Assembly: GCA_020161505.1 (NCBI GenBank)
Contig: JAIUNY010000006.1
Span: forward strand, 62,001 to 126,000
From: Armatimonadota bacterium
Lineage (GTDB): Bacteria; Armatimonadota; Fimbriimonadia; Fimbriimonadales; Fimbriimonadaceae
Reading direction: 5' to 3'
DNA length: 64,000 bases
Shown: positions 35,001-40,536 of the stretch, piece by piece
Layout: every line of letters begins with the position of its first letter
Position numbering within the stretch: the stretch's first letter is position 1
The notes under the pieces: model-generated
Database searches by the model: none
What the model was told of the DNA's origin: nothing
The model's input: the letters and a program-made list of their open reading frames with translations, nothing else
Position numbers and translations under genes: made by a program

Positions 35001-35522
35001 AGGTCGCTCGACCAACTCACGAGAGAGCGCTTCATGGCGACCTTCAGTCAGCTCCAGGTTGCGTTTGCCGAGGTGTTCGTGCGACTCCTCGGTGGCGGGG
35101 AAGCGAGCCTGGAACTCACGGAAGCAGAAAACGTGCTGGATTCGGGCGTGGAAATCTCGGTCACGATCCCTGGCAAGCGTCGGCAAAGGCTGGAGCTCCT
35201 CAGCGGAGGCGAGCGGGCGATGAGCGCGTTGGCGTTCTTGTTTAGCCTCTTGCAAGTCAAGCCCTCGCCGCTCGTGATTCTCGATGAAGTCGATGCCCCG
35301 CTCGATGGCCGCAATGTCGAGCGGTTCATCAGCATGATGCGCGCGTTCAACGATCAGAGCCAGTTCATCCTCATCACCCACAACCCGGTGACGATCGAAT
35401 CAGCAGACATCTGGTTCGGGGTCACGATGCAGGAGCCAGGAGTCTCGACGCTCGTGCCGTTCAAGGCCCCGACGAAATCGGTTGATCCGGCGGTCGCGGC
35501 GAATGTTTCTCTTAAGGGTTAA
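32016..35522 (+). CDS. smc: Chromosome segregation ATPase SMC
   Basis: 1168 residues, full length for bacterial SMC. Walker A GPNGCGKSN at residues 31-39, then AILWGLGETNARNLRA; two long coiled-coil arms (about 165-490 and 670-1010) rich in Glu, Ala, Gln and Arg; the hinge around 495-665 (GARAVMLAANQGRLEPVY to SGAVTGGATTKQG); C-terminal signature LSGGERAMSALAFLF and Walker B LVILDEVDAPLD. It compacts and resolves the chromosome with ScpA and ScpB, which are not nearby. The last codon and stop overlap the convergent 35519 gene in a shared TTAA. Confidence 0.98.
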   Translation: MNLKRVKIYGFKTFADKTEFEIDGNIISIIGPNGCGKSNIVDAILWGLGETNARNLRAQTAKDVIFNGSGTRKAVGYAEVTLVFDNEDGTLPIEGAEVSVTRRLTRSGESDYFINKRPCRLRDVSDLLADSGLGRAGYAIVSQSDIDQALSASAVQRRAWIDEAAGVQRYRVRRTEALRRLESTEEHLQRVHDIITEIETQRAPLAEEAEIAKRYKAALGGLREVESSLLRRELADSIKEVEELETRIDSVMKLSEDDALKADRLERLAAETFTKANDLDIKIEGLREQQQAAQSRWEQASAAAQIAQHKLESLDNLQSTLSEEVKHSGEQLAEAEKAVAETSAEEARERENLQRLETELSGADGEAKQLAAALKDLERQVEAARKIVAERQKWEVELAHRESRIKQLRKEIAGIVNTLPDLAEGIAEAEKLHGEADAKVNEAKSAMEALEREEQDERKARETFDQSNRKLLAQIAALDGKRRGIEATIDAHEGLAQGARAVMLAANQGRLEPVYTPVGESIVVDSDLALAFDTALGGAANDLIVPDDRFAKKAIDFLKQNRLGRATFQPLNFMRPNVVTQDLRDLLRKPGVVGLASELVDCDPQNRPVIDSLLGRVVITEDLDSALALAKTRGWSRMVTMDGELLHSSGAVTGGATTKQGTGLVQRKAELAEIEEELLDLQKELEKLQKASSGDESRVLNRQAKREQLRAALVEARTERDDHHTWLMGLRHEQVTTVNSQKRLEDELAKLSTAPTVQADEVDLPALEAARDQALRRLAEKSTDANGAQARLQEASERLQQAVHRAKEAARRLSNLQEAENNRSRRVENLEPEREKYRAQITEATALLEQTAAEVQSLREKIMAEIVTRKNLTEEAQKLAEEARAAQKAASGNAEILHQAEIKRARADSKRSVALERLLEEYGIDLEAALDGVDDLEIPEDAAALVAKLRRDLKQMGDVNLGAIEAYERLTERYDELHGQTEDIEAGIRELRSTVRSLDQLTRERFMATFSQLQVAFAEVFVRLLGGGEASLELTEAENVLDSGVEISVTIPGKRRQRLELLSGGERAMSALAFLFSLLQVKPSPLVILDEVDAPLDGRNVERFISMMRAFNDQSQFILITHNPVTIESADIWFGVTMQEPGVSTLVPFKAPTKSVDPAVAANVSLKG

Positions 35523-36145
35523 CTGAACAGCATCGGGATCATGAGTTCGGCCTTGAACAACCAGGTGCGCAACTCCTCTTCCCGATCCTCCGTGAGGCTG
35601 GCTCCGGCGGCTTTCAGATCCGTGATCGTTGCTTGGATTTGCTTCAGGAATCCGGCTTGATTCGACTCCCAAGATGTCACGACAAAATAGAGCACGATGT
35701 CGAACTCTTTGAGCCGTCGCACCGATTCCTGTTGATCTTTATCAAGCGAGTGCCAGAGGCTCATCGCAAAATCGACACCACGCCAACAGAATGCGTCCAT
35801 GTCGCTTGGGCGGAACTTTTCGAGGGCAAGTTCAACCTCCGGCGTCGGGGCCGTCGTGGCGGCCAGCACGAACTCTGCTTTCATCCGGAGATTCCGCACG
35901 GATGCTTCGTGGAAGTCGATAAAGGCGAGGCAGGAAAGCAGGCAGCACCGGCACTGAGCCGGAGACATGCCGTGGTCGGGTCGGGTCAGACGAGTCAGAA
36001 CGAACAGAATCTCCTTCTCAGAGGAGCCCTTGATTTTCGCCCGGTCGGAAGCGAGCATCGAAAGGATCGTGGAGGCGGGGTACTTGACCGCCTCTGGGAA
36101 GCGTCCCTCCGGATCGGGCTCGGGGCTCGCGATGGCGATTCTCAA
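35519..36145 (-). CDS. Unknown protein A of a four-gene overlapping paralog cluster
   Basis: 208 residues from TTG at 36145, overlapping the upstream stop as TTGA. The N-terminus MRIAIASPEPDPEG matches the starts of the next three genes. A following helical segment (EKEILFVLTRLTRPDHGMSP, then a Cys-rich CRCCLLSCLAF) resembles the body of the smaller paralogs; the second half (about 110-208, DFAMSLWHSLDKDQQESVRRL to EEELRTWLFKAE) may be a second copy. No known family. Last gene of the operon; its stop shares TTAA with the smc stop. Soluble, no signal peptide. Confidence 0.7.
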   Translation of the reverse strand: MRIAIASPEPDPEGRFPEAVKYPASTILSMLASDRAKIKGSSEKEILFVLTRLTRPDHGMSPAQCRCCLLSCLAFIDFHEASVRNLRMKAEFVLAATTAPTPEVELALEKFRPSDMDAFCWRGVDFAMSLWHSLDKDQQESVRRLKEFDIVLYFVVTSWESNQAGFLKQIQATITDLKAAGASLTEDREEELRTWLFKAELMIPMLFS

Positions 36146-36447
36146 TTGGAACTCACACGCTGGCGGTCATTCCAATCCTTGGTCTCGCTCAACCACTCTC
36201 TCACGAGCCTCAACTTCTCCTCATCTTGGCAACGGGGGTCGCCTTCGCTCAGCGAGAGCTTGACGAACTGATAGGTGAACGCCTTCGCATCGAATCGGCT
36301 GTTTGTGCTCCAGACTCGCCAAAAGGTCTCCTCGTGGGTCGATTTCCCGTTCTCAAAACCCGCCAGATCCCAAGCGGTCATCCACACGTCCCATGCCCGC
36401 GGGATCTCGCGGTCGCCAGGTTCCGGGCACCCAATCTGAGTCCTCAT
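36142..36447 (-). CDS. Unknown protein B of the paralog cluster
   Basis: 101 residues from ATG at 36447, which overlaps the stop of gene C as ATGA; an upstream in-frame ATG at 36498 lies inside gene C and is less likely. It starts MRTQIGCPEP and continues with paired Trp residues (AWDVWMTAWDLAG), then EETFWRVWSTNSRFDAKAFTYQFV and REWLSETKDW. These blocks align with gene C (EVFWGLWEQTTRVDSRRALFRYM, NEWMRETRD) and gene D (LFDALWTKNARPTARRKTYRFL, RWVNETED). Small, helical, Trp-rich and charged. Function unknown. Confidence 0.72.
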   Translation of the reverse strand: MRTQIGCPEPGDREIPRAWDVWMTAWDLAGFENGKSTHEETFWRVWSTNSRFDAKAFTYQFVKLSLSEGDPRCQDEEKLRLVREWLSETKDWNDRQRVSSN

Positions 36448-36761
36448 CGATTCCGCGCCTCCTCGATGTCCAGAATGTCCCGCGTTTCGCGCATCCATTC
36501 ATTCACGATGTGCCACTTGGGATACTGATCACGCGAGAGGTTCAAATTGTAGAACCAGAGCCCCATGTACCGGAACAATGCTCGGCGGGAATCCACTCGC
36601 GTTGTCTGCTCCCAAAGCCCCCAGAACACCTCTTGGCAGTGCGAAGTTGGCATCGCGGGACAAGCGAATTCGGAAAGCGTCTTCCACGCTTCGTAGGCTC
36701 CGAGAGTCTCCGGATCCCAAGGATCGGGATGAGGTTCGGGACTCGCAATCGCGGTTCTCAC
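36444..36761 (-). CDS. Unknown protein C of the paralog cluster
   Basis: 105 residues from GTG at 36761, overlapping gene D's stop as GTGA. N-terminus MRTAIASPEPHPDPWDPETLGAYEAW gives the fullest form of the shared leader: SPEP, an acidic Pro-rich turn, then a helix with a Trp. Later blocks FWGLWEQTTRVDSRRALFRY and VNEWMRETRDI align with B and D. A Cys sits in ACPAMPTSHCQ. No signal peptide or membrane helix. No known family; perhaps a small adaptor, toxin, antitoxin or immunity-type protein, which is speculation. Confidence 0.74.
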   Translation of the reverse strand: MRTAIASPEPHPDPWDPETLGAYEAWKTLSEFACPAMPTSHCQEVFWGLWEQTTRVDSRRALFRYMGLWFYNLNLSRDQYPKWHIVNEWMRETRDILDIEEARNR

Positions 36762-37086
36762 AGACCCTCCGGATCATCGAGCAACACGGAGAGGAGTTGA
36801 TCCTCTGTCTCGTTGACCCATCTTCCTAAGGTGATGAGCTCCGGAGTGGTCTTTACTCCCTGTTTCTCCAGGCTTCGCACTTTGCCACTCAGAAATCGAT
36901 ATGTCTTCCTGCGGGCAGTGGGCCGGGCGTTCTTCGTCCAAAGGGCGTCGAAGAGCATTTCAAAGGTCACGGGTTGCTTGGTCGCGATGTCGGAGAGCTG
37001 CATCATGGCTCGCCACGCTTCCCAGGCCCGCTGAGTCTCCGGATCCGGGTGGCGCCAGGCTCCGGGGAGCTGATCGTGGTGCGCAT
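36758..37086 (-). pseudogene. Frameshifted fourth member (D) of the paralog cluster
   Basis: ATG at 37086 opens MRTTISSPEPG, the family start, but this frame stops at 37003. The family sequence continues one frame over as WRHPDPETQRAWEAWRAMMQLSD, which aligns with PHPDPWDPETLGAYEAW of gene C, and then runs to the stop at 36758 (LFDALWTKNARPTARRK, GRWVNETEDQL). The shift falls near 37056-37060 in GAGCCTGGCGCC. The second frame has no start codon between the preceding stop and the shift; its first internal ATG is at 37006. It is either a real first-gene frameshift, a programmed shift, or an assembly error. Confidence 0.75.
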
Positions 37087-37110: not shown

Positions 37111-37139
37111 AGTATAAGACACACGTCGTTCAAAATCAA
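37111..37139 (-). promoter_or_regulatory. Sigma70-type promoter of the four-gene paralog cluster
   Basis: On the minus strand TTGATT (37139-37134) and TATACT (37116-37111) are separated by exactly 17 bases. Transcription would begin near 37104, about 18 bases before the gene D ATG at 37086. No other promoter is needed for the four overlapping genes. Confidence 0.82.
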
Positions 37140-37172: not shown

Positions 37173-37769
37173 ATGGACGAAAAGCTGGCGGCGATTTTGG
37201 ATCGGGCGTGGGGTCTGCTGGAGCACGCTGTGGGCCACCGAAAAACCCCCATGCACCTGGGCCTCCTCGCAACCGAGAGCGAATCCGGGCCGCAAGCTCG
37301 CCTTGTCGTCCTGCGGGAAGCCAATCGAGATGCCGCTTTCCTGCGCTTCCACACCGATATCCGGAGCCCCAAGTTCGCAGAACTTCAGTGTGATCCCCGC
37401 GTCGCTTGGGTCTTCTATGATCCGAGTGAGAAAGTTCAGATCCGGCTTCTCGGGCGGGCAGAGATCCATACATCCGGGGCCATCGCCGATGAGGCCTGGG
37501 TCAACACCGTCCCCTTCTCCCGGCGATGCTACATGGCGACAATCGCGCCGGGATCTGCCAGCGACGTCGAAACCAGCGGCCTCCCCGCCGAACTCGAATC
37601 CCGCGAACCAACGCTGGAGGAGAGCGAAACAGGGCGAGGTCAATTCTGCGCCGTGGTCACTCGCGTCACGGAAGTCGATGTCTACACCCTGGCCGTGACC
37701 GGGCACCGACGCGCTCATTTTTGGATTGAGAATGGGGAAGTCGTCAAGGCCGAGTGGCGCGCGCCCTGA
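37173..37769 (+). CDS. Pyridoxamine 5'-phosphate oxidase-like FMN-binding protein
   Basis: 198 residues from ATG at 37173; the frame is open further upstream, but that part overlaps the divergent promoter. The split-barrel flavoprotein fold shows as MHLGLLATESESGPQARLVVLREANRDAAFLRFHTDIRSPK, then VAWVFYDPSEKVQIRLLGRAEIH, and the dimer-forming C-terminus VDVYTLAVTGHRRAHFW. PNPOx relatives oxidise or bind FMN and pyridoxine-type ligands; this one lacks a full PdxH C-terminal domain, so it may be a general flavin reductase-like protein rather than true PdxH. Confidence 0.85.
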   Translation: MDEKLAAILDRAWGLLEHAVGHRKTPMHLGLLATESESGPQARLVVLREANRDAAFLRFHTDIRSPKFAELQCDPRVAWVFYDPSEKVQIRLLGRAEIHTSGAIADEAWVNTVPFSRRCYMATIAPGSASDVETSGLPAELESREPTLEESETGRGQFCAVVTRVTEVDVYTLAVTGHRRAHFWIENGEVVKAEWRAP

Positions 37770-38753: not shown

Positions 38754-39572
38754 TTACCGGAATCGCCAAATGATCCCACTCGCGCCGGATTGGATGGCGG
38801 AAGCCTTGTAGGATTTCGTGTGACCATCAGCAAACACGACCGGGGTTCGACCGTCGGATCCTTGACGCAGATATCGACCGATGATCGGCTTGAGGGCGCC
38901 AGGGCTGAGGTTAGAGGGGGCACCGCCGAGCTTTGCTACCAGGTCTTCGCCGCTCGCAAGGGGAACGGCTTGCTTCAGATCGGTGAGGGTGGTGAAGCCT
39001 GGCTTGAACGTGGTTCCGTTATCTGCCCCAAAAACAAAGCCTCGGTACTTGCCTCCCGCGCCGTGAGGAGTGTTGGCAAACATCCCTGTGCCCGCCGGCT
39101 CCTCCATCTGACTTGTGTTTGCCGCACTCGTGTAGGCGGAGCATCCTAAGACAAGTTGACCGTTGGTGCACACCAAGTCAGCGGTGGTTGCTTGAGAGAA
39201 CGCGAACGCGGTGGTGTCGTTGTAGCCGATGCTTTGTCGGTGCCTGGTGCTCCAATCCGTCGCAAACTCGCTGCCTTGCGCACCAGGAGCAATGAAGATC
39301 TGACGATCCTTTACATAGGGGTACACGTTGGTCGTCCAGATGCGTGTGGGATCCGCCGTTGGAGTGTCGTAGTTCGTGCTTGGCACGAAAGTCTCGTCGT
39401 TGTCGGACGTATAGATCATCACGCCCATGCTGAGTTGACGCATCTGGGCGAGGCCGGCTGTGGCTTTAGCCGACTCTTTTGCTGCCGCGAAGACGGGGAA
39501 GAGGATCGCGGCAAGGATCGCAATGATCGCGATCACGACAAGCAGTTCGATGAGTGTGAAAGCGCGGCGCAT
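38754..39572 (-). CDS. Prepilin-like (pseudopilin) protein, tandem copy 1
   Basis: 272 residues. Leader MRRA then FTLIELLVVIAIIAI and ILFPVFAAAKESAK, the type IV prepilin/pseudopilin signature with cleavage before the F. The globular part contains MIYTSDNDETFVPSTNYDTP, GANPHG-like TPHGAGGKYRGFVFGADNGT and, at the end, TPVVFADGHTKSYKASAIQSGASGIIWRF, the H-X9-DG-type tail of DUF1559-like proteins. It is the same length as the copy at 39670 and clearly a duplicate of it. Last gene of the sigma/anti-sigma/pilin operon, or separately transcribed from the 97-base gap. Confidence 0.93.
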   Translation of the reverse strand: MRRAFTLIELLVVIAIIAILAAILFPVFAAAKESAKATAGLAQMRQLSMGVMIYTSDNDETFVPSTNYDTPTADPTRIWTTNVYPYVKDRQIFIAPGAQGSEFATDWSTRHRQSIGYNDTTAFAFSQATTADLVCTNGQLVLGCSAYTSAANTSQMEEPAGTGMFANTPHGAGGKYRGFVFGADNGTTFKPGFTTLTDLKQAVPLASGEDLVAKLGGAPSNLSPGALKPIIGRYLRQGSDGRTPVVFADGHTKSYKASAIQSGASGIIWRFR

Positions 39573-39669: not shown

Positions 39670-40488
39670 CTACCGGAATCGCCAAATGATCCCGCTCGCG
39701 CCGGATTGGATCGCGGAAGCCTTGACTGATTTTGTGTGACCGTCGGCAAACACCACCGGAGTCCGGCCGTCTTTCCCTTGACGCAGATAGCGCCCCTGAA
39801 TCGGCTTGAGCAACCCCGGATCGACGCTCGCATCGGCGGAAGCGATGAGATCCTCGCCACTTGCTAGGGGAACAGCTTGCTTCAGGTCTGTAAAGGTGGT
39901 GAATCCTGGCACGAGAGCCGTTCCATTGTCAGCGCCGAACACGAATCCCCGATACTTGCCACCCGGGCCATGAGGGGTATTCGCGAAAAGTCCGGTGCTC
40001 GCGACCTCCTCCATTTGGCTGGTTGTGGCGACTGCATTGAATGCCGAACAACCAAGGATCAGCGCGCCTGGCTGGCATGTTGGAATGGTGATGATGACGG
40101 TGGGGCCGACACCGGAGACGGCCGTGACATCGTTGTAGCCCACGCTCTGGTTTTGGCGCGTGCTCCAGTTTCGAGCATAGGTGCTTCCGTTCGCGCCGGG
40201 AGCCACGAAGATCTGCTCATTCTTCACGTACGGAAACACGGCGGCGGTCCAAATACGATTTGGGTCGGTCGTGGGAGTGTCGTAGTTCGTGCTGGGGACA
40301 AGGGTTTCGTCGTAATCCGACGTGTACATCATCACACTCAGACTCAGTTGGCGCATCTGCGAGAGACCCGCGGAAGCTTTCGCGGCTTCTTTGGCAGAGG
40401 CAAAGACGGGGAAGAGAATCGCCGCCAGAATCGCGATGATGGCAATTACCACCAGGAGTTCAATGAGCGTAAATGCGCGTCGCACCAT
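39670..40488 (-). CDS. Prepilin-like (pseudopilin) protein, tandem copy 2
   Basis: 272 residues from ATG at 40488 (MVRRAFTLIELLVV); an ATG two codons upstream is also possible. Leader, then ILFPVFASAKEAAK. The body aligns with copy 1 throughout, including SDYDETLVPSTNYDTP, SQMEEVASTGLFANTPHGPGGKYRG, GFTTFTDLKQAVPLASGEDL and DGRTPVVFADGHTKSVKA. The largest difference is a region around residues 125-145. It starts 48 bases after the stop of the anti-sigma-like gene, in the same direction, so regulation by the ECF factor is likely. Confidence 0.93.
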   Translation of the reverse strand: MVRRAFTLIELLVVIAIIAILAAILFPVFASAKEAAKASAGLSQMRQLSLSVMMYTSDYDETLVPSTNYDTPTTDPNRIWTAAVFPYVKNEQIFVAPGANGSTYARNWSTRQNQSVGYNDVTAVSGVGPTVIITIPTCQPGALILGCSAFNAVATTSQMEEVASTGLFANTPHGPGGKYRGFVFGADNGTALVPGFTTFTDLKQAVPLASGEDLIASADASVDPGLLKPIQGRYLRQGKDGRTPVVFADGHTKSVKASAIQSGASGIIWRFR

Positions 40489-40536
40489 AAGCATGAAGAC
40501 GTGACCTTACCGCAGGATTGTTCTGGCGTCCCGGGT

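Follow-up and report, generated by a model that had tools for sequence, protein, structure and literature searches.

A putative four-gene orphan operon with a common N-terminal peptide in an Armatimonadota bacterium

Short N-terminal targeting peptides are found on otherwise unrelated cargo, as exemplified by the encapsulation peptides of microcompartments. In translationally coupled operons for heteromeric complexes, successive genes are linked by serial four-base overlaps of stop and start codons (PMC10666635, PMC6728339), and subunits of complexes are overrepresented among overlapping gene pairs in E. coli (30.4% vs 6.8%; PMC10666635). Homogeneous polyimmunity loci, which belong to polymorphic toxin systems, are tandem arrays of distantly related immunity paralogs with no toxin gene among them; certain immunity families are mostly alpha and have conserved arginine and acidic residues (PMC3482391).

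The locus described here lies at positions 35519-37086 of the window, a stretch of 64,000 nucleotides from an Armatimonadota bacterium, and resembles each of these systems in part. Like the polyimmunity loci, it holds tandem, small and distant paralogs in one operon with no toxin gene, and Rhs-type polymorphic-toxin loci are present elsewhere in the genome. Unlike them, it has no immunity family match and no recombinase seen alongside, it carries a common N-terminal tag, and it belongs to a phylum without reported long arrays, since the extended loci have been reported only from other phyla (PMC3482391). Its serial four-base overlaps are those of coupled complex operons, whereas its products, A-D, are orphan proteins that match no known complex. 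As with targeting peptides, A-D carry one short peptide on different bodies, and this peptide is disordered in the model of C. To our knowledge, the tag sequence is not among the targeting peptides described so far. The common tag is the unusual feature of the operon. We tentatively favor, with somewhat less than even confidence, the view that the locus is an orphan operon restricted to one species and that its coupled products associate with each other, or on a common partner, through the flexible tag. The suggestion of a conflict, immunity or multi-subunit system, made in the initial annotation, is compatible with the observations. The features are as follows, in the direction of transcription.

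37111-37139, minus strand: sigma-70-like promoter match TTGATT-17-TATACT, with 9 of 12 consensus matches
37003-37086, minus strand: D, tag frame; ATG open reading frame of 27 aa, MRTTISSPEPGATRIRRLSGPGKRGEP, closed by TGA
36758-37006, minus strand: D, body frame, shifted by -1 from the tag frame; ATG at 37006 as its first start, 82 aa; paralogous to B and C
36444-36761, minus strand: C; GTG start, 105 aa, tag VRTAIASPEP; predicted four-helix protein
36142-36447, minus strand: B; ATG start, 101 aa, tag MRTQIGCPEP; homologous to C
35519-36145, minus strand: A; TTG start, 208 aa, tag LRIAIASPEP; body unrelated to B, C or D by sequence

The four chained minus-strand frames of the initial annotation are present as reading frames, apart from the break in D that is discussed below, and the codon use of A-D is coding-like in these frames, with the scores of B and C weak next to those of housekeeping genes. 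The successive four-base overlaps were likewise found as described: GTGA at the C/D junction, where C starts within the stop of the D body frame, ATGA between C and B, and TTGA between B and A, the starts of B and A each lying inside the stop codon of the preceding gene. Coupled translation is what we infer most firmly. An overlap of this length is ordinary here, because 7 of 39 co-directional pairs in a crude gene call of the window have one. The promoter match lies upstream of D, but it is plausible rather than decisive, because the scan found one such site against 0.6 expected from shuffles. At its 3′ end, A is convergent on smc, the two having four bases in common (smc stop at 35522), and the divergent neighbor on the other side is a pyridoxamine-oxidase-like (pdx-like) gene (37176-37769, plus strand). 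The operon lies among housekeeping genes (smc, the pdx-like gene, rpoC and pdh), with no recombinase seen next to it.

MRxxIxxPEP is present at each of the four starts, which bears out the common start pattern noticed earlier. The pattern MR-x-x-I-x-x-PEP after any start codon has 4 matches in the 3.14-Mb genome, exactly these starts, and none in the reversed control. It is scattered over 65 of the 291 phylum genomes, and outside the present genome it occurs there as isolated singles or pairs on different contigs, never clustered. Over tag codons 2-10, the pooled pS is 0.74 and the pN is 0.25, in a small sample of only nine codons and for a pattern picked from the sequences themselves; between A and C, the tag has 5 synonymous differences and 1 non-synonymous difference. 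The synonymous differences thus far exceed the amino-acid changes over these nine codons, which argues for selection on the tag peptide. Since the same disordered peptide sits on two unrelated kinds of body, docking to each other or to a common partner is suggested. It is quite improbable, in our estimate, that MRxxIxxPEP represents a new portable assembly or targeting tag on helical paralogs and an unrelated longer protein, with the operon building an undescribed multi-subunit device limited to one species. Encapsulin cargo was also considered and was rejected: PF04454 is absent from the operon's own genome, while the control genomes gave matches.

The alignment of B, C and D survives the shuffle test that the initial annotation had set as its refuter. 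The three proteins have pairwise identities of about 27-30%, and the shuffle tail p values for all three pairs are about 5e-7 to 1e-6 for the bodies without the N-terminus, and about 1e-9 for the full-length proteins, with D joined by hand across its frameshift. With C as the query against the real frames of the genome, B was retrieved at E = 4e-7 (27% identity) and the D body at E = 2e-5 (30% identity). B, C and D are rightly described as divergent small paralogs whose translation is coupled. The confident AlphaFold2 model of C (pLDDT 83.0), a single-chain prediction from an alignment of the three paralogs, contains helices at residues 17-33, 39-50, 55-70 and 83-104, while residues 1-12, which form the tag, are disordered with pLDDT below 50. 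Foldseek searches with this model against the PDB and BFVD gave no fold match better than E 1.

Protein A is different. Its interpretation as a duplicated form did not hold, as the two halves of the protein show no match to one another (p 0.49 by shuffles). The body of A has no detectable similarity to B, C or D in pairwise comparisons (p 0.50-0.80), and hmmsearch and hhalign were also negative; its match to the others is confined to the first ~13 residues, so that the full-length comparison of A with C gives p 7e-5 and the signal is gone without the N-terminus. An alignment of helices by eye made A attractive as a diverged form of B, C or D, but this was ruled out by the shuffles, hmmsearch and hhalign. 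Since body similarity was undetected, A is tied to B, C and D only by the N-terminus, the location and the coupling, and A and the tag could have come to their common start via a duplication accident and not through function. The model of A, from one sequence, was unusable (pLDDT 39).

How is D encoded? As assembled, it is not the single open gene from 37086 that had been assumed. The frame of the ATG at 37086 reads MRTTISSPEPGATRIRRLSGPGKRGEP and closes after 27 codons, with its stop at 37003, and it is the -1 frame that encodes the segment of D alignable with B and C (HPDPETQRAWEAWRAMMQLSD...VNETED...). The tag and the body are offset by one base, roughly at codons 11-14. The body frame has no ATG, GTG or TTG before 37006, and paralogous sequence, with no start codon in it, can be followed upstream as far as about 37051. 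No canonical slippery heptamer is visible, as read by eye, where the frames cross; the break is more likely a recent mutation or an assembly error than programmed frameshifting. The tag reading frame has a stop that overlaps the ATG at 37006 in the form ATGA. This overlap follows the operon's own rule and would suit a D that functions as a split product, with the 27-aa tag peptide and the 82-aa body coupled through this ATGA or joined by frameshifting. We consider such a split D very improbable: a body starting at 37006 would be without the first part of helix 1, the missing heptamer argues against frameshifting, and the ATGA coincidence, without independent support, is given little weight.

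The frameshift in D is odd for a required subunit. The break favors a decaying or nearly neutral orphan locus, in which a family that arose or was acquired in the lineage is in the course of being lost and D is the first member to be already broken. The presence of the cluster in one species only, within the collections searched, points in the same direction, as does the predominance of species-specific clusters in catalogs of unknown genes (PMC10849945). However, the genes for A, B and C are unbroken and their coupling is exact, there is no further stop in the D body frame, which keeps coding-like codons, and the tag has few amino-acid changes for its synonymous changes. We regard decay as rather unlikely.

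The absence of a recognizable family, stated in the initial annotation, was borne out: nothing exceeded any cut-off in Pfam, NCBIfam and PADLOC, and no relatives of A-D were found in PHROGs or the PDB. Beyond the operon's own genome, relatives were absent from the 7 same-genus genomes, from the 41 genomes of relatives (own genome included), from the 85 family genomes and from the 291 phylum genomes, as well as from plasmids and phages by tblastn. GTDB r220 and IMG/VR gave none either, in scans with short peptide patterns that mainly reach close relatives and that distant homologs outside the phylum could escape. The cluster is also absent beside the smc and pdx-like genes of close relatives, where other genes are located. 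Since the neighborhood of the pdx-like gene differs in same-genus relatives, the junction at this gene is rearranged in the lineage. A-D show native values of GC content, GC3 and codon usage, which implies either an origin of the family here or a residence long enough for amelioration; a recent foreign origin is unsupported by the native GC and GC3. The operon thus has the look of a protein family that is young, unnamed and confined to a single species within the collections searched.

Several weaker matches were discarded. Those in genomes (G097, G006 and others) were attributed to chance, and the two inspected are alternate frames of, or run across, conserved genes. The matches of PF16811 to A (E 0.006, below cut-off), of HTH_TANC1 and PADLOC E1-E2 to D, and of acyl-CoA-binding chains in the PDB are sub-threshold and not common to the paralogs.

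The main rival explanation, which we consider unlikely, is a polyimmunity-like or other conflict array, in which B, C and D (and A) would be diverged immunity or antitoxin-like proteins, forming a reservoir against the toxins of neighbors. An arms race would explain both the fast divergence and the loss in relatives, the cluster being absent from 7 of 7 same-genus genomes. B, C and D are indeed several tandem, distantly related paralogs, as in the described loci without a toxin gene; the mostly alpha immunity families mentioned above also fit, and seven Rhs core matches exceed the cut-off in the operon's own genome. Nevertheless, Pfam, NCBIfam and PADLOC yielded no Imm match, no other family and no recognized immunity superfamily. 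No relative of A-D lies beside the genome's own Rhs loci, in the stretches read, and the search of the 291 phylum genomes gave no relatives, beside toxin genes or elsewhere. The housekeeping surroundings, with no recombinase seen alongside, and the phylum itself also argue against such an array, and the polyimmunity arrangement does not include a common N-terminal tag.

The seven Rhs core matches are located in genome G000 at contigs C17:32725, C4:60568 and 61947, C6:320887, C19:248830 and 250196, and C1:65118 (loci L081-L093). Several are in tandem, with small orphan genes between them. All of the matches lie close to the end of a contig, an indication that repeated Rhs cores interrupt the assembly.

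For the orphan operon with tag-mediated assembly, which we prefer, we propose the following course. An ancestral helical protein of ~100 aa with a flexible N-terminal MRxxIxxPEP would have given rise to D, C and B by tandem duplication, and A, longer and unrelated in sequence, would bear the same peptide and close the operon. One promoter upstream of D would allow the transcription of all four genes, which would then be translated serially by termination-reinitiation at the four-base overlaps. In this scheme, the products would all dock through the disordered tag, and the variation would lie in their helical bodies. If this is true, the operon represents a young gene family with visible assembly logic, in which one short peptide was kept while the bodies diverged beyond recognition. 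The retention of the peptide even on an unrelated protein would make it a clean test case for the origin of multi-protein operons. If the locus is only a decaying orphan array, it is ordinary.

Two further observations concern duplicated sequences in the window. The adjacent genes at 38754-39572 and 39670-40494 (minus strand) are a tandem duplication, and the prepilin-type proteins that they encode (MRRAFTLIELLVVIAIIAILAAILFPVFA...) closely resemble each other. Within the operon, the 14-base stretch GGATCCGGAGACTC is identical in C (36704-36717) and D (37033-37046) on the minus strand, despite the ~30% protein identity; in D it adjoins the frameshift, and GATCCGGAG is found again close to where A starts.
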